Shown: piece by piece, positions 1 to 10,816 of the stretch
How the letters are laid out: the number at the start of each line of letters is the position of its first letter
How positions within the stretch are numbered: the first letter of the stretch is position 1
Source: Zhongshania sp.
Lineage (GTDB): Bacteria; Pseudomonadota; Gammaproteobacteria; Pseudomonadales; Spongiibacteraceae
NCBI RefSeq assembly: GCF_029212375.1
Contig: NZ_JARGNU010000013.1
Location: 1 to 51,444 of the forward strand
DNA: 51,444 bases
Direction of reading: 5' to 3'
The notes under the pieces: model-generated
The model's database searches: none
What the model was told of the DNA's origin: nothing
The model's input: only the letters and a program-made list of their open reading frames with translations
Made by a program: the position numbers and the translations under genes

Positions 1-1
1 G

Positions 2-28
2 GTTCAGTATGAGAAATTAGCAAATTAA
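2..28 (+). pseudogene. Possible last codons of an IS3-family transposase
   Basis: The window opens inside a frame reading V-Q-Y-E-K-L-A-N-stop. A tail of the type SPxQYEK near the C-terminus is common in IS3-family OrfB (DDE/rve) transposases, and the stop is followed at once by a GTGTCCGGTTTTGTTGACC-like stretch (30-48) that could be the terminal inverted repeat of such an element. Only nine codons are visible, so this is weak and rests on pattern memory. The rest of the element would lie left of the window. Confidence 0.28.
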
Positions 29-130
29 TGTGTCCGGTTTTGTTGACCAGAACACCGGTATCTGGTGGGGTAACCGTGAACGGCTTAGGTGGTGTACTGA
101 ATTCTGAATCAAGTTCAGAGTGACTAAATA

Positions 131-249: not shown

Positions 250-267
250 TTACTCCCATTCTATTGT
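250..267 (-). other. Distal guaA 3'-end copy (candidate att site)
   Basis: Read on the minus strand the 18 bases are ACA ATA GAA TGG GAG TAA, coding T-I-E-W-E-stop. The real guaA ends ACC ATT GAG TGG GAG TGA (9185-9202), the same peptide, with 14 of 18 bases equal and all four differences silent. Just left of both copies lie similar landmarks: GGG then TTA then CAAATT (231-246 here, 9169-9180 at guaA). I infer that this is the displaced attachment site of an element integrated at the guaA 3' end. Confidence 0.55.
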
Positions 268-358
268 AAATAAGCAATTTTTTCTCTTTAATTTCATATA
301 GTTATTTTTATACATTTATCCAATACCATGAAAAATACCATGCTCAGAAATTTCCTAA

Positions 359-553
359 TATTTTTCAATTCTTATTGCTGAGTGGCTCGATCAACGACTA
401 TCGACGCGCAATGAAGGCTCCCAAAATCATATCCAATTACTAAGTTTTATGCAGCAGTGGTGTCGGGTGATTAAACTCTGTCTACCAACTGATGTTACAT
501 ACCAAGCACAAATAAATGGTTTATCTCTCGATCATTTTCTGTGGCCACCCTGA
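359..553 (+). pseudogene. Open frame, possible remnant of an unknown protein
   Basis: A frame of 64 codons is open from just after a stop at 356 to a TGA at 551. Its only internal ATG (449-451) would give 34 residues. The translation has the composition of a real protein (a stretch rich in W, Q, L and H) but I recognise no family, and it lacks a start with a ribosome-binding site. It may be the C-terminal piece of a gene cut by rearrangement at the left edge of the accessory region, or chance. Confidence 0.2.
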
Positions 554-557
554 ACTA

Positions 558-1088
558 TTATTTTCTTGTCAGCATCGATTCAATATGAAGCTCCATCGCA
601 ATACGCCCACGCAGCCCTCTGTGTTTTTCGTCGTCAAGCTTTCTAGCGAGCTCCACCGTTAATTGACTTCTATCAATCCGACAAAATCCAAGCCGTTCAT
701 AGAACGGAGCATTCCAGGGAACATCGCTAAATGTTGTCAACGTCACTCGCGGCAAGCCTTCTTTCCGCGCCCAGCACACGACTCTTTGAATCAGTGCTCG
801 TCCCAGGCCCCGAACTTGATGCTCAGGCAGCACGTCAACTTCCACAATAAACGCGGTGTCGGCCTCCCGCACAACAATGATAAAGCCGACCGGTTGCTGC
901 TCCTGTGTCAGTGCGACCCAAAGACGCCCCTGTTGCATGGCTTCAACCAGTTGCCCCAGCGGCACCACACTCACCCTTTCTTCAGGTGTAATAACATGGT
1001 CGGGAAACAGCCTGGCGGCAGAACGCTCGATAGACGCCAACTTTACAAGGTCTTCTTCCCGCGCTTTTTCAATCGTGTATTGATTCAT
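558..1088 (-). CDS. GNAT-family N-acetyltransferase
   Basis: The 176-residue protein has the GNAT fold signature. The acetyl-CoA pyrophosphate loop is seen as QVRGLGRAL at residues 91-99, after the core beta strand (FIVEVDVLPEH, 80-90), and the motif-B region NAPFYERLGF lies at 126-135. GNAT enzymes move an acetyl group from acetyl-CoA to an amine; the substrate cannot be told here. The ATG at 1088 is preceded by only a weak ribosome-binding site. It lies 58 bp after the uracil-DNA glycosylase gene on the same strand and may be cotranscribed. Nothing suggests a toxin-antitoxin role, since no partner gene precedes it. Confidence 0.85.
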   Translation of the reverse strand: MNQYTIEKAREEDLVKLASIERSAARLFPDHVITPEERVSVVPLGQLVEAMQQGRLWVALTQEQQPVGFIIVVREADTAFIVEVDVLPEHQVRGLGRALIQRVVCWARKEGLPRVTLTTFSDVPWNAPFYERLGFCRIDRSQLTVELARKLDDEKHRGLRGRIAMELHIESMLTRK

Positions 1089-1146
1089 AAAACACTATTT
1101 CAGTATTTCTGGCTGCTCATTCAAAATCTGCCACACACCACCGGCA

Positions 1147-1734
1147 CTACTGATTCAGACATTTTTTTGTTAAGCGCTTCAGTTCTGGCAGAACATCCCT
1201 CGCAAACCAGAGGTTACGCGCCAGCCAGGTATAATTGCGTGGCGAAGGATGCGGCAAGGCAAAATATTCAGGCAAATGCTTACGCCAATTCTTCACCGTA
1301 TCGGTCAAGGTTCTGCTTCTGCTAGCCAAATAATATTGCTGTGCGTATTGACCGATCAGGAGCGTCAACTGGATCTCTGGCAGACAGGCCAGTAATTCGG
1401 CATGCCACCGGGGTGCGCATTCCGGGCGCGGCGGCAGGTCGCCCGAACGTCCCTTGCCCGGATAACAAAACCCCATGGGCACAATCGCCACTTGGCTTTC
1501 GTCGTAAAAAATCTCCTGGCTTACACCCAACCAATCTCTCAGCCGCTCACCACTGGGGTCATCCCAGGGGATTCCACTCGCATGCACCCGTGCTCCCGGG
1601 GCTTGACCGATAATCAACAGGCGCGCTCCCTCAGCTGCCCGGACAACAGGTCGAGGGGAATGCGGCAAATGCCTAGCACACAACTCGCAGTTTCGCGCGT
1701 CATTGAGGACGTCGACCAGCTGAAAGTCAGTCAC
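1147..1734 (-). CDS. Uracil-DNA glycosylase family protein (Family 4/5-like)
   Basis: The 195-residue protein resembles single-domain uracil-DNA glycosylases that excise uracil from DNA for base-excision repair. Motif 1 appears as GQAPG (43-47) and motif 2 as HPSPRN (162-167). Four cysteines, C16-x2-C19 near the N-terminus and C90-x15-C106 in the middle, match the spacing of the 4Fe-4S ligands of Family 4/5 enzymes. In motif 1 the E/D found after GQAPG in many relatives is replaced (GQAPGARVH), so the exact catalytic type is open. It is probably accessory to the housekeeping Ung. It is followed by a GNAT gene on the same strand. Confidence 0.8.
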   Translation of the reverse strand: MTDFQLVDVLNDARNCELCARHLPHSPRPVVRAAEGARLLIIGQAPGARVHASGIPWDDPSGERLRDWLGVSQEIFYDESQVAIVPMGFCYPGKGRSGDLPPRPECAPRWHAELLACLPEIQLTLLIGQYAQQYYLASRSRTLTDTVKNWRKHLPEYFALPHPSPRNYTWLARNLWFARDVLPELKRLTKKCLNQ

Positions 1735-1800
1735 CTGGGATTCCTGAGAGTCATTTCTTTAGTTCGGGAAGCATTGATCACAACCACATCGATCTCGTTA

Positions 1801-2466
1801 TTAACTTGCTATTTTCAAACTCAGCGCGGTATTTTTATTCCGTAGAAAATTATACAGCCGAGCTGGATAGTCCGGCATGACGGCCATTCGCACTGACTCC
1901 CGTGCTGCCAAATGTCGCCTCCATTCAAGCACCTTTGGACAGTGCTCGAAAAAACCGAACTCATCGATCTGCTCGAATACATCGAAATAACGAAAAACCG
2001 GCGCGAAGAATGCGTCCACCATGGAAAACCTGTCACAGGAGAAATAAGGCGCGGAAGATAGTTCGCTTTCCAGGCGTTGAAACTGAAGGGCCAGCGCATC
2101 ACGCTTTTGGCTCAACACCGCGTTATCGGGCGCCGAATAAAATCCCGCTATGTTGTTTAAAATACTGGAACTGAATTCCATCCAGGATCGATGCTGCGCC
2201 CTCGCCAATGGATCTTCCGGGTGCAGGGCGCGAGGGAAGGCTTCTTCCAGATACTCACAAATCACTGCGGATTCAAACAACGCCCGTCCTCCCACATCCA
2301 GGACCGGTGTTTTTCCCAGCGGGGAAATCTCCAAGAACCATAGCGGCTTATTGGCGAGATCGACATCCCTCCGCCGATGATCTATATGCTTCTCCTCCAT
2401 GACTATCGCCACGCGCTGGACATAGGGACACAGCGCATGACTGACCAAGGTCAACGAATGGTTCAT
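1801..2466 (-). CDS. Glutathione S-transferase family protein
   Basis: The 221-residue protein has an N-terminal thioredoxin-like domain with the CPYVQRV motif near residue 13, the cis-proline segment (GKTPVLDV) and a SNAIL-like ESAVICEYLEE glutathione-binding turn, followed by an all-helical C-terminal domain. It looks closest to the SspA/omega-like branch that keeps a cysteine at the active site. A start six codons upstream (2484) exists, but the ATG at 2466 is preceded by GAGG at good spacing and starts at the usual point before the first beta strand. A glutathione-dependent detoxification or thiol-transfer role is inferred; the substrate is unknown. Confidence 0.85.
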   Translation of the reverse strand: MNHSLTLVSHALCPYVQRVAIVMEEKHIDHRRRDVDLANKPLWFLEISPLGKTPVLDVGGRALFESAVICEYLEEAFPRALHPEDPLARAQHRSWMEFSSSILNNIAGFYSAPDNAVLSQKRDALALQFQRLESELSSAPYFSCDRFSMVDAFFAPVFRYFDVFEQIDEFGFFEHCPKVLEWRRHLAARESVRMAVMPDYPARLYNFLRNKNTALSLKIAS

Positions 2467-2582
2467 AGGATATACCTCTGCCATTGTGTGAATAGTTTTT
2501 GACTTGGCCCCATGAAAAACCTCTCACCCAATGCAAATATTGCCGTGAATCACGGGGCTTACGCTACGAAAACCACTTATTT

Positions 2583-2960
2583 TCAAGCGACTCGATCCGT
2601 TTCCGGACGAAAAAGGTATCCGGCAAAAAGTATCGCCACCGCCAATCCGAGATGCAGCCAGCGATCCGCCTGGTTGATATGGATTATCCCAAGCAACATA
2701 TCGCCCCTGGTGAAAAATCCGATGATCGCGACCAGGAAATACAACCCACCGATGACTTTGATCACCCGGTCTTCACGGCCAGCAAATACCAGGGCACTGA
2801 CGATAAAGCCCAACCCGGTTATCAGGTGAACCAGATTGTGCGCCAGGTTCACCGCAAACAGGCCATGGGGGGATACCAGGGGATTAGGTATAAAACCCAA
2901 CACGGTAACTGCAATGAATGTGAAGCCCAATGCCAGGGCAACATTGCGACTATTGAACAT
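2583..2960 (-). CDS. DUF4383 integral membrane protein
   Basis: The 125-residue protein has four predicted membrane segments and the NLAHNLVHLITGLGF signature typical of DUF4383 proteins, with a second amphipathic pair around NQADRWLHLGLA. I chose the ATG at 2960 because AAGGAG lies at good spacing before it; an in-frame start 18 codons upstream has none. The function of the family is unknown. It sits between a GST and a secreted YHS protein on the same strand, a grouping that suggests a stress-linked cassette, but that is inference. Confidence 0.85.
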   Translation of the reverse strand: MFNSRNVALALGFTFIAVTVLGFIPNPLVSPHGLFAVNLAHNLVHLITGLGFIVSALVFAGREDRVIKVIGGLYFLVAIIGFFTRGDMLLGIIHINQADRWLHLGLAVAILFAGYLFRPETDRVA

Positions 2961-3047
2961 ACCAAAACTCCTTATTGAATGATTGGTGAATATGACGGGA
3001 CATCGTCCCGCCATATTTATCGCCCGAGTAACGTGCTGACCGCTCGA

Positions 3048-3500
3048 TTAAAGCGACGCTGGCGATTTGTCCTTGATTTTTTTCCAGGTTGTATTGGCCG
3101 TCTTGATACGCCCAGGCACGTCTTTCAACCACTCGTCCTGAATCCCTGCATCCAGATTGAGGTACAGCGTGCCATCGACTACACGCCAGACCTCCGGGTC
3201 ACCAATAAACTTTTTACCCACCGATACGCCGAATGCGCAGTAGCCACCGAATGCCGGTACATATTTTTCCGGGTTCGCCATAAACTGCTGCTGATTGGCT
3301 TTGCTGGAGAACAGATAGGTTGCACCTGCATGCTCGGCAACAAAATTACCGTTGCCTCGCAGGGGCCGCTTGCCGGTATGGTAGGACACCACGTCGTAAC
3401 CCTGTACGGCAGGCGCGCTGTGGAGATAATCGCCGGCCATCGCCCCAAAGGAGATACCCAGCAGAGCAATCACGGCGAGTAATGTGTGTTTGATTTTCAT
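3048..3500 (-). CDS. Secreted YHS-domain protein
   Basis: The 150-residue protein starts with a signal peptide (KIKHTLLAVIALLGISFGAMA) whose likely cleavage follows AMA. The mature part opens with the YHS-type GYDVVSYHTGKRPLRG segment and continues with YLFSSKANQQQFMANPEKY and GGYCAFGVSVGKK, all typical of YHS proteins in Proteobacteria. YHS domains often bind metals; here one cysteine (GGYCAFG) and several histidines are present. The ATG at 3500 has GAGG nine bases upstream and is preferred over a TTG at 3527. It follows the CMD-family gene with a short gap, probably in one operon. It should act in the periplasm. Confidence 0.85.
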   Translation of the reverse strand: MKIKHTLLAVIALLGISFGAMAGDYLHSAPAVQGYDVVSYHTGKRPLRGNGNFVAEHAGATYLFSSKANQQQFMANPEKYVPAFGGYCAFGVSVGKKFIGDPEVWRVVDGTLYLNLDAGIQDEWLKDVPGRIKTANTTWKKIKDKSPASL

Positions 3501-3535
3501 TGTCTTAAACCTCGTCTTAAATCTCAAAAATTAAA

Positions 3536-4090
3536 CTAAACCGCCCGACTCAGGGAAGATGTCGAAACCAGTGGGAAATCGACCTCCGTATCGGCGATAT
3601 GATTGAAGTAGTTGGTGAAAATATTCATGCAGGTAACGGCGATAATCTCGACGATCTGGCCATCGGAAAAACCGGCCTGCCTGACAGCCGCCAATTCACT
3701 ATCGGCGACACGACCCCGCTGATCCACGATGGCAGCAGCAAAGGACAATGCCGCCTGGGTAGTGGTATCAGTCGATTGCGCCTTCAGGTTGTTGGCCAGC
3801 TCGGACTCCGCAACCCCCGCCCCCTTACCCAGAAGCGTATGGGCAGAAGCGCAGTAGTCGCACTGGTTTTTACCTGCTGCGACCAGGGCAATCTGCTCAC
3901 GTAACTTCGGGTCAAGGTCACCGGAAGCCAGGGCCGACATCTGTTTCAGATAGGCATCAAGCACCGCCGGCGACTGGGCGAGCGTCTTGAAGATATTCGG
4001 GACAAGTCCCAGCTGGCGCTTAACTGCGTCCAGCAACTTTCGCGCAGCGTCACTGGCCTGTTCTGGTTGGACTGGTTGTATTCGTGCCAT
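3536..4090 (-). CDS. Carboxymuconolactone decarboxylase-family (AhpD-like) protein
   Basis: The 184-residue all-helical protein carries the AhpD-type redox motif C77-D-Y-C80 with H84 (CDYCASAH) and the upstream acidic position in KLREQIALV. AhpD-like proteins reduce peroxides or hydroperoxides with paired cysteines; the family is often labelled 'peroxidase-related enzyme'. The intact CxxC and the histidine argue for a working redox centre rather than the decarboxylase branch. It is the first gene of the run CMD-YHS-DUF4383-GST, all minus strand, which would be a plausible oxidant-response unit. The AraC regulator gene at 5070 lies upstream and divergent, with the kinase gene between them. Confidence 0.85.
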   Translation of the reverse strand: MARIQPVQPEQASDAARKLLDAVKRQLGLVPNIFKTLAQSPAVLDAYLKQMSALASGDLDPKLREQIALVAAGKNQCDYCASAHTLLGKGAGVAESELANNLKAQSTDTTTQAALSFAAAIVDQRGRVADSELAAVRQAGFSDGQIVEIIAVTCMNIFTNYFNHIADTEVDFPLVSTSSLSRAV

Positions 4091-4210
4091 TTCAAAATTC
4101 CTCTCGTCATCTGATAAGGAGACCGATATTGATCTCCGGAAATATAATCACCTAACAGAGAGAGTTTATTAATATCGAAAAAACCTTATTAAATACTTAT
4201 TCGTATTTTT

Positions 4211-4876
4211 TTATACACGATTAAATTTATTGCTGAGCAGCGGCGCCACATAGCGCTTCCATAACCGGGTGCACACACGCAGGCGGTTGGCCCGCGACAA
4301 CAACTGCAATTCTTCGGCGCTCGGCGGATCTTGCGCGACCGCAAACTGCATGCGCAAACGAAGCACCTTTGCCCTGTCAGTCAATACCAGTTTGGAAAAA
4401 AGGAACTTGCCGAGAAGAGACAAAGGCCCTCTCCCCTTCGGCCTGAAATGGACCGATGCGTAGTCGATTAGATACAACTTGCCCCGGGTGTCTATTATTA
4501 TATTGCGCAAGCGCAAGTCATTGTGGGTCACGCCGCGTTGATGTAACAGGGACACACTTCGTGCCAGCTGACTGTCGATGCCTGCCCACCCCCCAAGATC
4601 GCGCCGATCAGGGTGGCGGCCGTTTATGACCGCCATCGCCAAACCATACCTACCGTGGCGACCATAGAATTCAGGCACACCGGGCACGCCCTGCAACCGC
4701 TCCAGGGCCTTGATCTCCCTGCTCAGCAAAATACGGCACACCGTCGCGCGCAAAAGCGGATGAGCGTGGTCGTAGCTTTTGACGACCAGCACCACGTCCC
4801 CACAAACAAACCGTCCCACATGGGCCTTAAATGATGAGGGGGCCGACTGAAGCCGTCGGTCTTCGTAGCAACCCAC
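4211..4876 (-). CDS. InaA/Kdo-kinase-like protein kinase-fold protein
   Basis: The 221-residue protein has a small kinase fold. A candidate ATP lysine is K33 (VVKSY), the catalytic loop is HNDLRLRNII (118-127) with D120 and N125, and the metal-binding aspartate is D138 (LIDYA). This layout is that of the WaaP/InaA/RIO-like lipopolysaccharide-kinase clan, which phosphorylate sugars or proteins. No lipopolysaccharide gene is nearby, so the substrate is unknown. The start is a GTG with a weak ribosome-binding site and could lie further in; the N-lobe looks short. It appears to be a stand-alone gene inside the accessory region. Confidence 0.75.
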   Translation of the reverse strand: MGCYEDRRLQSAPSSFKAHVGRFVCGDVVLVVKSYDHAHPLLRATVCRILLSREIKALERLQGVPGVPEFYGRHGRYGLAMAVINGRHPDRRDLGGWAGIDSQLARSVSLLHQRGVTHNDLRLRNIIIDTRGKLYLIDYASVHFRPKGRGPLSLLGKFLFSKLVLTDRAKVLRLRMQFAVAQDPPSAEELQLLSRANRLRVCTRLWKRYVAPLLSNKFNRV

Positions 4877-5069
4877 CTAATAGGCTAGCTTGCTGGAGAC
4901 CTGAAAATCCGACAGATGCATAAAATGTGGCACTCCTTTTTAACAACATCACCCGTACAAAATGGCAGACCACATTGCACACGGCATAAAAGAGTGTATG
5001 ATTTCAGCAGTATCTCGCACGAACCATACTTAATAGCCCTTCAATCACACTAAATCGTATTTTATTTTA

Positions 5070-6008
5070 ATGGACGCATTAACCGATATTCTCAATACCC
5101 TGCGCCTGAAAAGCAGCCTCTACTTCCGCACCGAACTGACGGCGCCCTGGGGAATTCAGGTTCCCCCCAAGGGTCGCGTGGCGCGATTCCATATCGCTAT
5201 TCGTGGTCAATGCTGGCTGCGAATCGACGGGCAGGACGAGGACGTGTTTATGGCCAACGGCGACCTGGTGATTATTGCCCATGGTGCCAGCCATATCCTC
5301 GCGGATTCCCAGGAGACGCCCCCAACCGATCTGGCAGACGTGTTTGAGGCAATCGCCTATCCCGGCAGCGGGCCGTTGGTCTATGGCGGTGGCGGCGCCG
5401 GCTGCTGCCTGGTCTGCGGCGAATTTGCTTTCGATGACCGAGAAAATCATCCCCTGCTGGATAACCTGCCACTGCTACTCAAGGTTACCGGAGACCAAAG
5501 CTACAACTCCAAATGGCTGGACTGCGTCATCGGTTTTATCGCCCATGAAGCGGCCAACCTGGACCCCGGCGCCAATGCCATTATTGACCGCCTGTCGGAA
5601 ATTATTTTTATCCAGGTCATTCGGGCCACTCTGGCCTCAGCCAGTAAGCCAATTCCTTTCCTTTCAGCCTTTACCGACCCGAGAGTCAGCCGGGTCCTTT
5701 CCGAGATCCACAGTGATCCGGCCGCGGACTGGAGTGTCGAATCCCTGGGCCGCATTGCCAACATGTCGCGCTCGGCCTTTTCCAATCGATTCACAGAGCT
5801 CGCGAATATGACACCCCTGCAATACGTTATTTTTGTCCGCATGCAGATAGCGGCTCGCCTCTTGGTCGACACCAATGACTCATTGCCGGCCATTGCGGAA
5901 AATGTTGGCTATAAATCCGAAGCTGCTTTCAGCCTCGCCTTCAAGCGGCAATTCGATGTCAGGCCCGGCGAGTATCGTCGCAAGCATAAGGCCGCTGCAG
6001 CCGCCTGA
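5070..6008 (+). CDS. AraC-family regulator with N-terminal cupin domain
   Basis: The 312-residue protein has an N-terminal cupin_6-type sensor domain (about 10-190: GRVARFHIAIRGQCWLRI, GDLVIIAHGASHIL, LVCGEFAFD) and a C-terminal double helix-turn-helix (about 210-305), with SVESLGRIANMSRSAFSNRF as first helix pair and AIAENVGYKSEAAFSLAFKR as second. Regulators of this type often control a divergent or adjacent oxidoreductase. Candidate targets are the minus-strand CMD-YHS-DUF4383-GST run or itself; this is inference. The ATG at 5070 has no strong ribosome-binding site and follows an AT-rich leader. Confidence 0.9.
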   Translation: MDALTDILNTLRLKSSLYFRTELTAPWGIQVPPKGRVARFHIAIRGQCWLRIDGQDEDVFMANGDLVIIAHGASHILADSQETPPTDLADVFEAIAYPGSGPLVYGGGGAGCCLVCGEFAFDDRENHPLLDNLPLLLKVTGDQSYNSKWLDCVIGFIAHEAANLDPGANAIIDRLSEIIFIQVIRATLASASKPIPFLSAFTDPRVSRVLSEIHSDPAADWSVESLGRIANMSRSAFSNRFTELANMTPLQYVIFVRMQIAARLLVDTNDSLPAIAENVGYKSEAAFSLAFKRQFDVRPGEYRRKHKAAAAA

Positions 6009-6146
6009 CCCGGTGCCTGGTGGCACATGCGCCCAAACCAGATTCTGCCGACGTCGCTCACCTTGCTCAGGGTCTGATGAGAATGGCGGCGCTTACTTAA
6101 GTGATTGGGTGCTCGGAAAACCGGTCAGCACTACCGGTAAGACGGC

Positions 6147-6704
6147 TTACCGTGAACTCAACAACTGCTTCGCCATTTTCTTGGCGAGCAGCGCGGCATC
6201 GCGATCACCACGGGTATGCGCGCGCACAATGGCACCATCGACCAGCAGTGCCAGCTGCTCGGCCATTAACTGTCTTTGCCGCCGGCCAGAAATCTCCATC
6301 AGGCTGTTTTCGATCAAGTCCTGAATCGCGGCTTTATGTTCAGCGGCCAGCATGTAAATCGCATGTGTTTGTTCAGCATATTCAGCGCTGGCATTGATAA
6401 AATTGCAGCCAGAAAAGTGATCGCTGTGAAACCACGGGTCCAATACATCAAAGATCGCCAATGTCGATGACTTTCCAACGGTTCTGGCTTGTTCAATGGC
6501 CTCGCCAACTGCCTGTATCAATTGCTCATGCCGTTGTTGTAAGACCGCAACGACCAGCTCGTCCTTGGTACGAAAGTGTTTATACAGGGTCGCCTTTGAA
6601 ACCCCGGATTCAGCCAGTATCCGGTCAATACCGGTAGCGTGGTAACCATATTCATTGAAAAGCCGATAGGCGGTATCCATCAAATGTTGTTTGCGCGGCT
6701 GCAT
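6147..6704 (-). CDS. TetR-family repressor of the VOC/FMN-protein operon
   Basis: The 185-residue protein has an N-terminal HTH (MDTAYRLFNEYGYHATGID, then ILAESGVSKATLYKHFRTKDEL) and a helical ligand domain with the CNFINASAEYAE segment seen in one large TetR subgroup. An upstream start at 6845 would run through the divergent gene and the operators; the ATG at 6704 gives the normal TetR length. It is divergent from the VOC gene at 6844, and two TGAACA-N4-TGTTCA palindromes lie in the gap, so it most likely represses both itself and that operon until a small molecule binds. Confidence 0.9.
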   Translation of the reverse strand: MQPRKQHLMDTAYRLFNEYGYHATGIDRILAESGVSKATLYKHFRTKDELVVAVLQQRHEQLIQAVGEAIEQARTVGKSSTLAIFDVLDPWFHSDHFSGCNFINASAEYAEQTHAIYMLAAEHKAAIQDLIENSLMEISGRRQRQLMAEQLALLVDGAIVRAHTRGDRDAALLAKKMAKQLLSSR

Positions 6705-6755
6705 GGTCGGTGTTTTCCTGGAGGATAAAAGCAACGACAGGATACAGAAAAAAGC

Positions 6756-6777
6756 TTGACATGAACAGATCTGTTCA
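6756..6777 (+). promoter_or_regulatory. Operator 1 overlapping a -35 box
   Basis: TTGACA (6756-6761) is followed directly by TGAACAGATCTGTTCA (6762-6777), a perfect 16-bp palindrome. The palindrome would fill the spacer of a sigma-70 promoter reading to the VOC gene (a weak -10 would fall near 6780). This is a classic position for a TetR-type repressor. Confidence 0.75.
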
Positions 6778-6794
6778 CCTAACCTGCGCCCAGA

Positions 6795-6812
6795 GTGAAC
6801 AGAATTGTTCAC
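6795..6812. promoter_or_regulatory. Operator 2
   Basis: GTGAACAGAATTGTTCAC (6795-6812) repeats the operator-1 half sites TGAACA/TGTTCA with the same 4-bp centre spacing. The centres of the two palindromes are 34 bp apart, a little over three helical turns, so two dimers could bind on the same face of the DNA. Confidence 0.75.
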
Positions 6813-6843
6813 CCTCTTGAACTTTATCATCGGAGGGATACCC

Positions 6844-7245
6844 ATGCACCAAAGTACTCAAGGCATTCACCACCTGGGACTAACGGTAAAAGACATCCAC
6901 GACACATGCGGATTCTTTTGCGATCGAGTAGGTTTTAAAGTCGTCGGCGAAAAGCCGGATTATCCGGCGATATTTGTCAGCGACGGCACAATCATGTTGA
7001 CGCTCTGGCAGGCCAAGAGCGATAACCCGACGGTTTCTTTTGACCGTCACCACAATATTGGGCTGCATCATTTTGCACTCAGGGTCGCAGATCACAAGGC
7101 TCTGGAGGTACTGCACAACAGGCTTGAAGGTCTGGCTGGCGTTGATATTGAATTCAAACCTGAACCCCTGGGACAAACCGATATCATGCATATGATGTGC
7201 ACCATACCGGGAGGCATCAGGGTCGAGTTTATTACCACCGGCTGA
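6844..7245 (+). CDS. VOC-family (glyoxalase/dioxygenase-like) protein
   Basis: The 133-residue protein is a single VOC module of two beta-alpha-beta-beta-beta units. It opens with GIHHLGLTVKDIHDTCGFFC and has GLHHFALRV in the middle and a final GGIRVEFI strand with the metal-type glutamate; H residues in both HHLGL and HHFAL and the E near the end are the usual metal ligands. Members include glyoxalase I, fosfomycin-resistance and dioxygenase enzymes; which one is not evident. The ATG at 6844 has GGAGGG upstream. It heads an operon with the FMN-binding protein and a GNAT gene, controlled by the divergent TetR. Confidence 0.87.
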   Translation: MHQSTQGIHHLGLTVKDIHDTCGFFCDRVGFKVVGEKPDYPAIFVSDGTIMLTLWQAKSDNPTVSFDRHHNIGLHHFALRVADHKALEVLHNRLEGLAGVDIEFKPEPLGQTDIMHMMCTIPGGIRVEFITTG

Positions 7246-7254
7246 GACTGCACT

Positions 7255-8175
7255 TTGAATAGTCATACACAAGATACCTGGCACCCCGGTGAACTGAGCG
7301 TACAAACCCGTGCCGGTGTACAGGAAAAAATGTCCCGCCTCGGGCCGAGACTGATACGGAACTACATGCCGGAACAGCACCGGGAATTCTTCGCCAGCCT
7401 CCCCATGGTAATTCTCGGCAGTGAAGATAAAGACTGTCACGTCTGGGCCAGCCCGCTATTCGGCGATCCTGGTTTTATCCGGTCACCCTCCTCCCAACAA
7501 CTCATTATTGATGCATCAAGCTATTATTCGGAGACGATTCTTCCGCACCTGCAAGTTAGCTGTCAGCTGGGATTGCTCGGTATTGACCTTGAAACGCGTC
7601 GCCGCAACCGACTGAACGGCATTGTTGTCAAAAAGGACCAGAATCAGGTCACTATCGATGTTCAACAGAGTTTCGGTAATTGCCCCCAGTATATTCAGCC
7701 ACGTCGGCTACAAGCCCAACCGCGCGAGGGCAAAATCACTACCGAATGCTTCAACAACTGGAGTAGCGAGTTGCAAGACGTCATTACCAGGGCCGATACC
7801 TGCTTTATTGCCAGCGTCTATTCAAGCGAGCGCGCTGACAAAAGCTCCGGCATGGATGTTTCCCATCGCGGAGGCCAGCCCGGATTCCTTGGCTTTGACG
7901 ATCATCATCGACTAATCATCCCCGATTATCCTGGCAATTCGTTTTTCAACACGATTGGCAACCTGACGGTTGACCCCCGGGCCGGTTTGCTCTTTCTAGA
8001 TTTTCAAGGAGGAAACATCATCACCCTGACCATGACCGCCGAGGTAATCTGGGAAACGGAGGATCCAATCCTTTGCGGAGACCACGACAGAATGATTCGA
8101 TTGTCACTAAAGGAGGGCTATGTTATCCACAATGCCCTTCCCTATCGCTGGGAATCAATGGGTAATGCGATATGA
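7255..8175 (+). CDS. Pyridoxamine-5'-phosphate-oxidase-related FMN-binding protein
   Basis: The 306-residue protein matches the larger PNPOx-like flavin-binding family, with the opening WHPGELSVQTRAGVQEK, then PEQHREFFASLPMVILGS and VWASPLFGDPGFIRSP in the first split-barrel half, and GFLGFDDHHRLIIPDYPGN with GLLFLDF in the second. The likely start is TTG at 7255, since the family's conserved HPGEL segment begins only nine residues later; ATG at 7330 would cut it off. It lies 9 bp after the VOC gene and overlaps the next gene by ATGA, so the three are one operon. Redox action on a small molecule is inferred. Confidence 0.85.
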   Translation: MNSHTQDTWHPGELSVQTRAGVQEKMSRLGPRLIRNYMPEQHREFFASLPMVILGSEDKDCHVWASPLFGDPGFIRSPSSQQLIIDASSYYSETILPHLQVSCQLGLLGIDLETRRRNRLNGIVVKKDQNQVTIDVQQSFGNCPQYIQPRRLQAQPREGKITTECFNNWSSELQDVITRADTCFIASVYSSERADKSSGMDVSHRGGQPGFLGFDDHHRLIIPDYPGNSFFNTIGNLTVDPRAGLLFLDFQGGNIITLTMTAEVIWETEDPILCGDHDRMIRLSLKEGYVIHNALPYRWESMGNAI

Positions 8176-8633
8176 GCTCGATTGAATATAGAGTATTAAA
8201 TCAGGTCAATCCCGACCCGTTATTATCCCTGTTAAACAAGAAAAGAATCCGGTCTCATTTGGTGAGTCACCAACGCTTTGACAGGGAATCGTTACAATTA
8301 TGGATCAAGACAAAAATCGAAATGGATGCGACTCCCGGCTGTCGAGTGCGAGCCATTATGGTTGATGGTCACTGTATCGGCTGGTGCGGTATACAGCACG
8401 ACAGTGGCGAATATGAAATCGCCGTTGTGTTGGATGACAGTCACTGGGGACTGGGACGAAGAATATTCCGTGACCTCATGACCTGGGCAAAAGAGCTGGG
8501 GCATAAAACGGTATCCATTCATTTCCTCCATACCCGACCGGAATATAAATTCCTCAAGAAAATTGCACAAAGCATGCACGAAAGCCAAATACTCGGGAAC
8601 AGGTTTACGACATATACGCTGGCGGTGGAATAA
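8172..8633 (+). CDS. GNAT-family acetyltransferase
   Basis: The 153-residue protein has a GNAT core, with VDGHCIGWCGIQHDSGEYEI as beta strands 2-4 and a degenerate acetyl-CoA loop DDSHWGLGRRIFRDLMTWA. The C-terminal part (LKKIAQSMHESQILGNRFTTYTL) replaces the common NxxxxxLYEKxGF helix, so it is a divergent member. Its ATG overlaps the stop of the FMN-protein gene (ATGA, 8172-8175), which implies translational coupling in the TetR-controlled operon. Confidence 0.75.
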   Translation: MSSIEYRVLNQVNPDPLLSLLNKKRIRSHLVSHQRFDRESLQLWIKTKIEMDATPGCRVRAIMVDGHCIGWCGIQHDSGEYEIAVVLDDSHWGLGRRIFRDLMTWAKELGHKTVSIHFLHTRPEYKFLKKIAQSMHESQILGNRFTTYTLAVE

Positions 8634-8733
8634 CTTTTTGCTCCAGGAATAAGCGGTATATTTATCGGGGGTTGAGCGACATTCTTTTTGCAATCGTCTT
8701 TTTACAATAGCCCCTGCTCGATGTGATCACCAA

Positions 8734-9069
8734 TCAGCACAGCCCATTACGCAACTCTCCCAAAGCACTCTTCAATCGCCCCGCCAGTTGCCTGGTTAAC
8801 TCTCCTGCCGAAACCTCTTTACACCCTGTCGTGTTTTGCCCTGCCCATAACGGTGAGAAATCGCCACTCGCGTGGCTCTCTGCTATGACGCGAAACGGCG
8901 CAATAGCAGATGGGCTATACCATGCAATTTTCATGGGATTCGACCAGCGTGGAAAAGGTAAAGCAAATTGAAGCTGTACTGGTATACCAGGTTTCCCGAT
9001 TGTTCCAGACCGTGCGCAGTTCAGATTCCTTGATACCATGCCAGCATTAATATGCCTCTCATGGTGCAA
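8734..9069 (-). pseudogene. Truncated nitronate monooxygenase (C-terminal remnant)
   Basis: A minus-strand frame ends with SPSAIAPFRVIAESHASGD, FSPLWAGQ and SAGELTRQLAGRL, which match the last part of nitronate monooxygenase/2-nitropropane dioxygenase (NPD) proteins, whose C-terminus carries the F-x-x-LWAGQ motif and a final AAELTRxL helix. The catalytic TIM-barrel part that should precede it (about 250 residues) is missing, and the frame opens without family-like sequence before GTIGKPG. It is therefore a gene remnant, probably cut during island rearrangement. It lies between the GNAT gene and the guaA end, and accounts for most of the 8634-9184 gap; nothing else is seen there. Confidence 0.65.
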
Positions 9070-9166
9070 ACTCTTTCTGCCTTGCTACCCTCACTCATAC
9101 CATGAGAAATGCAGTTGATGATACAGATTATATTATCAATTGGAGTTATTTTATTTCTATATTTCA

Positions 9167-9202
9167 ATGGGTTACAAATTTCCGTCACTCCCACTCAATG
9201 GT
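9167..9202 (-). other. guaA 3'-end attachment region
   Basis: The last codons of guaA (ACC ATT GAG TGG GAG TGA, 9185-9202 on the minus strand) form the proximal partner of the copy at 250-267. Downstream of the stop, CAAATT (9175-9180), TTA (9172-9174) and GGG (9169-9171) recur in the same order as left of the distal copy. GAGTGGGAGTGA at the end of GMP synthase is a known integration core for genomic islands. Confidence 0.5.
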
Positions 9203-10768
9203 CGCTGGTGGCTTGCTGCTTACATCATAGGCTACGCGTGAAACTTGTTTTATCTCGTTGATAATGCGGTTTGAAACTGTCTCTAGCAGCTCGTAAGGTA
9301 GGTGCGCCCAGCGCGCGGTCATGAAGTCGATGGTCTCTACAGCGCGCAGTGCAATCACGTATTCATAGCGGCGGGCGTCCCCTACTACACCAACCGATTT
9401 CACCGGCAGGAACACGGCAAAGGCTTGGCTGGTTTTGTGGTACCAGTCGGCGCGGTGCAGCTCTTCTAAGAAGATGGCGTCGGCTTCGCGAAGAATATCG
9501 GCATATTCTTTTTTCACTTCGCCTAAAATCCGCACACCCAAACCTGGACCAGGGAAAGGATGGCGATAGACCATATCGTAAGGCAGGCCTAGCTCTAAAC
9601 CAATGCGGCGCACTTCGTCTTTAAAGAGTTCACGCAGTGGTTCTACCAAGTCCATCGCCATATCGTCTGGCAGGCCGCCGACATTGTGGTGAGATTTTAT
9701 GACGTGGGCTTTGCCGGTTTTTGAGGCGGCAGATTCAATCACGTCGGGGTAAATTGTGCCCTGTGCAAGGAAGTTAACATCCTTGAGGGTGGTGGCTTCT
9801 TGATCGAAAATTTCGATAAAAGTATTGCCGATGGATTTACGTTTTTTCTCTGGGTCGGCTTCGCCGGCCAGCTTGCTTAGAAACGCTTCTTCGGCATCGA
9901 CGCGAATCACTTTCACGCCCATGTTTTTGGCGAACATTTCCATCACCTGATCGCCTTCGTTTTTACGAAGCAGGCCGTTATCAACAAACACGCAAGTAAG
10001 CTGGGTGCCAATGGCCTTGTGCAATAAGGCTGCCACTACTGAACTGTCTACGCCGCCGGAAAGACCCAGCAATACTTTTTGATCGCCGACTTGGGCGCGC
10101 ACTTTGGCAATGGCGTCTTCAACAATATTGGCGGGTGTCCACAGTGCTTCGCAGCCGCAGAGTTTCAGCACAAAATGTTCGAATATACGCTGGCCTTGCA
10201 GAGTGTGAGTCACTTCGGGGTGAAACTGCACACCATAGAATTTCTTGGCTTCGCACTGCATTGCCGCAATTGGGCACGATGGTGTAGAGGCCAAAACTTC
10301 AAAGCCTTCGGGCAGGCGAATAACCTTGTCACCGTGGCTCATCCACACATCAAGTAACGCCTTGCCGTCTTTACTGTCGATATGGTCAGCAATATCGGCG
10401 GTTAGCGCGCCAGCGGTTTCCAGTTTGATTTGGGCATAGCCAAATTCGTGAACTGGCGAGCCTTCGACTTTGCCGCCCATTTGCTCGGCCATGGTCTGCA
10501 TGCCGTAGCAAATGCCCAATACCGGCACACCCAGTTCGAATACCAATTGTGGCGCTCGTGGCGAACCAGCTACCGTTACCGACTCAGGCCCACCCGCCAA
10601 AATAAAGCCTGAGGGTTTGAATTCTTGGATATCTGCATCGTCAATATCAAAGGCGCGGATTTCGCAATACACGCCAATTTCACGAATACGCCGTGCAATC
10701 AGCTGGGTGTACTGAGAGCCAAAATCTAGAATCAATATACGGTGGGCGTGGATATCTGGGATTGACAC
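9185..10768 (-). CDS. guaA: GMP synthase (glutamine-hydrolysing)
   Basis: GuaA converts XMP, glutamine and ATP to GMP in the cytoplasm. The 527-residue protein has the class-I amidotransferase domain with the nucleophile in GICYGMQ (Cys87 with the start used here, next to E. coli Cys86) and H/E in FHPEVTHT, then the ATP-pyrophosphatase domain with [14 protein letters not shown] near residue 230, and the C-terminal dimerisation domain ending ATIEWE. I prefer GTG at 10768 (GAGAG upstream, family-like N-terminus [20 protein letters not shown]) over ATG at 10807, which has no ribosome-binding site and lies next to a terminator. guaB lies upstream. Confidence 0.97.
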
Positions 10769-10816
10769 GGCAATTCTCTCAACAAGGTTCACGGCAAATG
10801 TGAACATAAATAAAAC

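Follow-up and report, generated by a model that had tools for sequence, protein, structure and literature searches.

Why the last codons of guaA, the GMP synthase gene, stand twice on a contig of Zhongshania sp., and what the DNA between the two copies represents, are the questions raised by this locus. The window, which means the whole stretch of 51,444 nucleotides that was analysed (assembly GCF_029212375.1, contig NZ_JARGNU010000013.1), carries guaA on its minus strand and the second copy to the left of it. In a preliminary description of the window, the two copies were regarded as att copies that delimit an island, and this observation was confirmed. The island, 268-9184, is probably a non-autonomous element of the guaA site that is moved in trans by an integrase of the GIsul2 family. 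The features of the target and of the two island ends were as follows:

9185..10807, minus strand: guaA (GMP synthase), host gene with GATase and GMP_synt_C domains; its last codons are the integration site
9185..9202, minus strand: guaA-proximal att core, T-I-E-W-E-stop, GAGTGGGA, read from the sequence
250..267, minus strand: distal att core (second copy), read from the sequence
268..9184, no strand: island, no integrase; only short matches in 17 congeneric genomes
251..360, minus strand: island right end (arm doublet, 66 nt, core); 61.3 bits with a hidden Markov model (HMM) built without the window; alignment A1
323..330, minus strand: right-end arm octamer CATGGTAT, first base 66 nt upstream of the core's ATAGAATGGGAG
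335..342, minus strand: right-end arm octamer CATGGTAT, 12 nt from the first
9023..9192, minus strand: island left end of class B (core, about 160 bp of conserved A/T-rich sequence, arm octamers); 118.6 bits, E 1e-36; alignment A4
9097..9104, minus strand: left-end arm octamer CATGGTAT, the second of a doublet whose first has mutated
9033..9040, minus strand: left-end arm octamer CATGGTAT
8917..8924, minus strand: further CATGGTAT octamer

The minus strand at 250-267 reads ACA ATA GAA TGG GAG TAA, and the guaA end at 9185-9202 reads ACC ATT GAG TGG GAG TGA, both coding for T-I-E-W-E-stop. As claimed previously, 14 of the 18 bases were equal and each of the 4 differences was silent. IEWE was limited to these two places in a six-frame search of the window. 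The 18-mer by itself was not significant: sites with 4 mismatches also occurred at 5041 and 22113, and 60 shuffles of the window gave a mean of 0.48 such sites per 51 kb. The proximal core was GAGTGGGA and the distal core GAATGGGA, 1 base different, which puts a GIsul2-type core on both sides of the island. A tRNA was rejected as the integration target, with no tRNA within the window. The C-terminal 171 aa of guaA were matched in 18 of 18 congeneric genomes.

The arm octamers and the profile matches of both ends, and not the 18-mer, are what proves the island ends at the level of sequence. The octamer ATACCATG was found at 323, 335, 8917, 9033 and 9097 and at no other place in the 51-kb window, and all five lay no more than 270 bp from the two copies; base composition predicts 1.6 with both strands counted. 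Read in the orientation of guaA, the distal end consists of CATGGTAT-NNNN-CATGGTAT and then the core. The distance from the start of the second octamer to the core was exactly 66 nt in the window's genome, in the congeneric genome G001 and at both sites of the congeneric genome G017. A collection of genomes of GTDB species was searched for one octamer separated from the core by 56-60 free bases, which gave at least 118 stretches with at least 133 sites; the 118 loci are a lower bound in which shared contigs and near-identical records were retained, and two of the stretches, L138 and L163, were taken as chance. All 76 non-redundant sites went into the right-end HMM; the window is not one of them, whereas L138 and L163, which had no profile match, and the weak L155 are. 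Alignment A1 comprised 61 of the 76 sites together with the window and G001, with L138, L163, L155 and 12 sites dropped by choice left out; by construction, neither the second octamer nor the core varies in it. The upstream octamer, which lay outside the search pattern, showed conservation of at least 90% at 6 of its 8 positions across 63 aligned sites. For the left end, the class-B HMM was built from 14 left ends with the window and G001 excluded, and G001 scored 127.8 bits compared with the 118.6 bits of the window, to which the class-A HMM gave 5.6 bits. In agreement with the preliminary description, an island is truly present at the guaA integration site, and the second att copy marks its boundary.

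Two other proposals about the copies were not sustained. The distal copy was thought to have been brought from the guaA of another host. Left of the core, its sequence is that of the conserved right end which belongs to the element itself and which reads TTTACAAT-[A/C]-GAGTGGGA in many units; the silent match therefore mostly reflects an att core that mimics guaA. The landmarks GGG, TTA and CAAATT were said to recur in the same order left of both copies. When the flank left of 250 was compared with the class-B consensus, 980 of 2000 shuffles were as good; with the window's own left end, the result was marginal (91 of 2000 shuffles as good), and the left-end HMM reported nothing there. The landmarks were also considered as the remnant of a further unit left of 250, to which neither the shuffles nor the left-end HMM gave support.

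The comparison with relatives, as had been suggested, revealed the arrangement without the island in two congeneric genomes, G004 and G014. In these, sequence of the type found on contig C13 of the window's genome starts 118 and 82 nt past the guaA stop (75-79% identity) and comprises a small ORF and a large gene, which we take to be mechanosensitive-channel-like. No class-A, -B or -C end was found at guaA of G004 and G014 by HMM search. Nucleotide matches to 268-9184 were at most about 300 bp (the uracil-DNA-glycosylase paralogue, att ends and other fragments) in 15 of 17 congeneric genomes, and there was no match at all in the other 2. The content is accessory, as previously stated. A gene which follows guaA in relatives, presumably tadA, stood 1.2 to 15.7 kb past guaA in 11 of the 17, the search reaching up to about 20 kb per relative and 743 bp only in one; in the window's genome, it lies at C13:8446-8922.

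The left ends fell into three classes. Class A (G008, G017, L205-L209) is CTGGCA-rich and has the integrase gene right after it; in most members, its octamers lie about 140, 152, 190 and 217 nt from the core. In class B, a conserved A/T-rich stretch is present, and the octamers are at 77, 89, 127 and 154 nt. The arm spacings of 12/38/27 are common to classes A and B in most members, and the core-to-arm distance is about 63 nt shorter in class B. Class C is short, CTGGCA-rich and without octamers, which is the type of the ISCR/sul2 unit of G017. Among 18 congeneric genomes, the guaA-adjacent end was of class A in G008 and G017 and of class B in the window's genome and G001; in addition, G005 had a weaker class-B end (49 bits) and G002 a partial match (18.8 bits). 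In an even sample of 369 genomes of the window's class, class B was present in 14 genomes from 14 genera, own genome included. Of its 17 matches, 11 adjoined guaA, 4 the right end of another unit, and 2 were without a core half, so all 15 core-containing matches joined guaA or another unit. Within up to 1.5 kb beyond the end, none of five integrase queries matched next to a class-B end; one of the class-B matches ended at a contig edge. Class B is a separate conserved left-end type, seen here on integrase-less units only.

Two units of the same genus were observed alongside. The class-B island of G001 (L032, G001:C1:2286333-2299182) carries JetA, JetB, JetC and JetD (Wadjet) and a PDC-S01-type protein; a Tn3-family transposase gene separates jetA from jetB, and PF00589 gave no match. 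In G017, an integrase-bearing guaA island is followed in tandem by a 3.3-kb class-C unit (L047:12862-16168) that encodes an ISCR-type transposase and Sul2.

The earlier statement that no integrase lies between the two copies was correct. None of the 11 PF00589 matches of the window's genome fell on contig C8 (119,648 bp), which carries the island. In the PF00589 listing of 11 genomes, the interval between the two G001 island ends was free of matches, as were the 44 units on nine contigs chosen for holding several sites. Transfer families were not found among 13 island ORFs in a Pfam scan, and oriT was not searched for. With regard to integrative and mobilizable elements (IMEs) and integrative and conjugative elements (ICEs), an integrase of its own and mobilisation genes were not found on the island. 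Of the 18 congeneric genomes, two had the GIsul2-family integrase (P0001 from the congeneric G017, and close kin), at 100% and 84%, and the others reached at most 34%. Among 44 genomes behind att loci, it was present in 6, at 85-88%. In G413, G418, G420 and G423, it lay about 83-107 kb from the nearest right end among those listed, on the same strand, a distance that would fit an ICE. Furthermore, P0001 was matched in 62 plasmid records, 19 of them at 95-99% identity; the 15 plasmid records listed from this band all had 97.2%, including A. baumannii ATCC 17978, which is named as a GIsul2 carrier in PMC9376610.

The CR2-sul2 unit is likewise integrase-less, with att sites at the guaA 3' end and the core GAGTGGGA, and is excised and integrated in trans by the GIsul2 integrase, as reported in PMC9376610. 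The 3.3-kb ISCR/sul2 unit of G017 has a right end like that of the window (arm doublet, 66 nt, core). Because the target, the core (1 base off distally), the right-end type and the arm octamers are in common with CR2-sul2, trans mobilisation by the same family seems most likely. The two differ in that CR2-sul2 has a short CTGGCA-rich class-C end, whereas the window has a class-B end with arm sites. CR2-sul2 also has the CR2 transposase, sul2 and published movement; the window island, in its class-B end and cargo list, has no CR2-type left end, CR2 transposase or sul2, and is presumed to move. The GIsul2/guaA islands including ICERspD18B have the same target and 8-bp core as the window (PMC7775301; Song 2012 as cited there). 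As described in PMC7775301, GIsul2 and ICERspD18B encode integrase, AlpA and transfer genes, in contrast to the window, where no integrase or transfer family was found. The main text of PMC9376610 contains no 'arm-type', CATGGTAT or 'integrase-less'.

In the mechanism that we propose, a GIsul2-family tyrosine integrase encoded by some other element of the cell would act in trans and bind the CATGGTAT arm sites. The GAGTGGGA-type core of the island would then recombine with the core at the guaA 3' end, and the insertion would restore the last guaA codons and the stop. Since each insertion again leaves a core beside guaA, units would stack in the same orientation. The class-B left end would mark a distinct lineage of such units. 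The island presumably travels between cells, and GIsul2-family integrases sit in phage-like contigs as well.

This last point was examined in IMG/VR, where the right-end pattern occurred in 9 stretches on 8 contigs (L234-L242). A class-A-like left end came directly after the core in 8 of the 9 stretches. An integrase was present in 8 of the 9, with 57-82% identity to P0001 over the main aligned piece, one being cut at a contig edge. RecE-, RecT-, helicase-, Cas4-exonuclease- and excisionase-type PHROGs were among the matches of 10 ORFs from three stretches. The order of right end, left end and integrase is that of an undivided attP, here with the same arm octamers as in the island, which identifies the two island ends as attP halves. 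These contigs may be phages or misfiled integrative elements.

Several results weigh against movement in trans by a GIsul2-family integrase. The GIsul2-family integrase was not found in the assembled genome of the window (best match 31%), and it was absent at E 1e-60 from 38 of 44 genomes with units, many of which are metagenome-assembled genomes (MAGs); a helper must therefore have been missed or lost, or be present only for a time. Mutations have occurred in two of the four left-end arms of the window island, namely the first doublet octamer and the inverted octamer, so this copy may be fixed. Neither excision nor integration of the island was observed, and islands of the integrase-bearing kind that lost the integrase exist at the guaA site. 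The flanks of class-B matches in the sampled genomes were covered to at most 1.5 kb beyond the left end, and the flank of the island beyond position 54 is an assembly gap. In addition, one 170-base query of the class-B end gave no blastn match in 72,556 plasmid and 20,395 E. coli records.

The principal rival is a cis-mobilizable element (CIME), that is, a decayed ICE or IME which lost its own integrase beside guaA and retained attL and attR; we consider it unlikely. CIMEs and accretion are well described (PMC5704250, PMC7563491), and attL and attR without recombination genes and tandem stacking at one gene end are features in common with the units reported here. On the window island, attL and attR were retained, and no integration or transfer genes were found. 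Integrase-type left ends without an integrase were seen in G413 unit 1 (151 bits) and in G411 units 2 (107) and 7 (63). As these class-A ends occur at the same site, decay is a rival that has to be reckoned with. Moreover, there were 7 class-A units among the at least 118 loci, with P0001-like sequence in 2 loci only, L103 (fragment) and L114, and the guaA-proximal ORF at 8734-9069 has the look of a gene remnant. In the two papers, a CIME is by definition a product of decay, whereas the class-B left end was not seen on integrase-bearing islands. The left end of the island scored 118.6 bits with the class-B model and 5.6 bits with that of class A, and class-B ends recur across 14 genera of the sample, where no integrase was seen beside them. 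Repeated independent decay of known islands would leave class-A ends, so the recurrence of class B speaks against decay. The proposal of a decayed or accreted carrier in the preliminary description was thus tenable as a possibility, but the left end is not of the type of the integrase-bearing islands seen here; a parent that is extinct or has escaped sampling may nevertheless have existed.

It is rather improbable that class-B units are served by a dedicated recombinase, encoded elsewhere or undetected by PF00589. In 38 of 44 unit-bearing genomes, no GIsul2-family integrase was found, and the class-B core-to-arm distance is about 63 nt under that of class A, both of which would suit such an enzyme. 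Nevertheless, class B agrees with the GIsul2/CR2-sul2-type units in target, in arm octamer, in the kind of right end and mostly also in the 12/38/27 spacing, and rows of units mix A-, B- and C-type left ends. That the two copies are a coincidence or ordinary intergenic sequence without a site-specific element, as the near-chance 18-mer and the chance landmarks on the left might suggest, is hardly credible in view of the arm octamers at the two ends only, both profile scores and the relatives without the island.

In the sample of 369 genomes, the right-end pattern was present in 19, the window's own included, and the reversed pattern in 0; in the window's family, it was present in 5 of 21. The at least 118 loci gave 30 class-B matches in 24 loci, 14 class-A matches in 12 and 41 class-C matches in 38. 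A class-B match of 75 bits occurred in Acetobacter sicerae. There were 149 right ends in 115 loci, and 50 whole units were readable (26 of class C, 17 of class B and 7 of class A). The R1 search on the genomes behind 50 loci (49 mapped, 45 genomes) gave a match in 45 of 45, as expected, with a maximum of up to 30 matches in G411, a Sedimenticola MAG.

The nine contigs with 44 units were selected and are not a sample. All sites lay on one strand in each row, and the units were co-oriented. guaA headed the row in 5 of the 9 (G426, G402, G415, G397 and G433), G415 being the isolate S. selenatireducens DSM 17993 with a row of 7 units (L214-L216). The units ranged from 220 to 15,406 bp with a median of 3,210. 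The longest row, on a contig of Sedimenticola sp. BM503 (L210-L213), had 13 intervals, of which that of 220 bp is doubtful and probably no unit of its own; its left end is nonetheless in the class-B HMM. Weak or partial unit borders occurred, for example, at G411 C61 13761 and 47309, G433 13977, G413 259149 and G426 54511. Fifteen of the 44 units exceeded 70 bits with the class-B HMM, 14 of which had been used to build it. Left ends of A, B and C type were mixed within rows, and the genes pointed both ways. In the G433 row (L223:13301-13591), an extra guaA C-terminal fragment of 97 aa (71%) was noticed.

The cargo of the rows was studied on 200 ORFs of at least 90 aa in two sets of 100, with the 25 most frequent families per set. 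In the first set, Pfam gave among the most frequent AbiEii (4), DUF4143/AAA_14 (4), ABC_tran (4) and DUF6088 (3), and further Fic (3), cytochrome b561 (3) and RelE (2). The second set gave proton antiporter (3), methyltransferase (3), cytochrome b561 (2), ParE (2) and Fic (2). With PADLOC at 1e-10, the matches listed included PDC-S01 (4), AbiEi and AbiEii (3 each) and SoFic (3) in the first set, and SoFic (2) and members of AbiE, PD-Lambda-2 and JetA in the second; single PADLOC matches do not prove whole systems.

Integron cassette arrays are co-oriented rows of units without their own recombinase, many of them small. Compared with integron arrays, the guaA rows have phage-type att sites with arms, guaA as a platform, genes in both directions and no PF00589 match. 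Set against CIME tandems, the rows reach 13 intervals on one contig. A tentative interpretation, to which we give somewhat less than even weight, is an integron-like cassette system in Proteobacteria, in which a lineage of integrase-less units with standardised ends would be gathered, all in one orientation, behind guaA at a phage-type site by integrases borne on phages, ICEs and mobilizable islands. The rows would be exchangeable stores of defence, toxin-antitoxin and stress genes, with the clinical CR2-sul2 unit as one branch. Among the papers found, CR2-sul2 is the sole integrase-less guaA unit for which trans movement was shown, in the context of resistance. Our results suggest that a larger environmental family, varied in its cargo and arranged in rows of up to about 12 units, includes CR2-sul2 as one branch. 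No description of guaA unit rows or of the class-B end was recognised in open-licence PMC papers, preprints being outside this scope. If trans mobilisation of class-B units is true, integrase-based island finders would miss a layer of gene exchange, which includes anti-phage defence such as the Wadjet island of the same genus, and the common arm sites would let one phage, ICE or IME integrase release many units.

The window island itself carries the following genes:

8734..9069, minus strand: ORF of 111 aa without Pfam or NCBIfam match; 74% match over 102 bp elsewhere in the genome
8172..8633, plus strand: GNAT acetyltransferase (domain match)
7255..8175, plus strand: PPOX-type flavoprotein-like (62.4 bits, cut-off 170)
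6805..7245, plus strand: glyoxalase-family protein (domain match)
6147..6845, minus strand: TetR-family regulator (domain match)
5070..6008, plus strand: AraC-family regulator with cupin; best NCBIfam RclR, 133.9 bits, cut-off of 400 not reached
4211..4876, minus strand: kinase-like protein, every Pfam match under cut-off
3536..4090, minus strand: AhpD/peroxidase-related protein, carboxymuconolactone decarboxylase family
3048..3527, minus strand: YHS-domain protein (137.9 bits, cut-off 70)
2583..3014, minus strand: DUF4383 protein
1801..2484, minus strand: glutathione S-transferase-like (GST-like) protein
1147..1734, minus strand: uracil-DNA-glycosylase-superfamily protein with a paralogue elsewhere in the genome
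558..1088, minus strand: GNAT acetyltransferase

The cargo is a mixed set with a stress or detoxification flavour (RclR-like regulator, YHS, AhpD-like, GST-like and GNAT proteins). The ORF at 8734-9069, the end of which presumably resembles the C-terminus of a nitronate monooxygenase, is probably a gene remnant. Defence genes were considered as the cargo and rejected: PADLOC on 10 of 12 island proteins (TetR and glyoxalase left out) gave only weak kinase-domain matches of one protein.

On the far side of the distal core, the contig ends with two features:

1..54, no strand: end of a multi-copy insertion-sequence-like element and contig boundary; identical 54-55 bp at the ends of C18 and C3
55..150, no strand: copy of a dispersed intergenic repeat, chromosomal flank; window 1-600 matches 54 genome places including itself, nearly all through this stretch

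The element, which we take to be IS3-like, has a counterpart whose opposite end opens contig C13, followed by the guaA-neighbour genes of G004 and G014. Both C8 and C13 open with an insertion-sequence-like end, in opposite sense and embedded in the dispersed repeat, so an adjacency of C8, element and C13 is likely. The suggested search for an integrase left of position 1 meets the contig end at this element, and the first 10 kb of C13, the probable next contig, gave no att-end match. In G002 (L027:1501-1701), a second, degenerate guaA 3' fragment with 51% identity and stops was found far from guaA. The repeat at 55-150 is tandem in places and also lies close to several contig ends in the window's genome.

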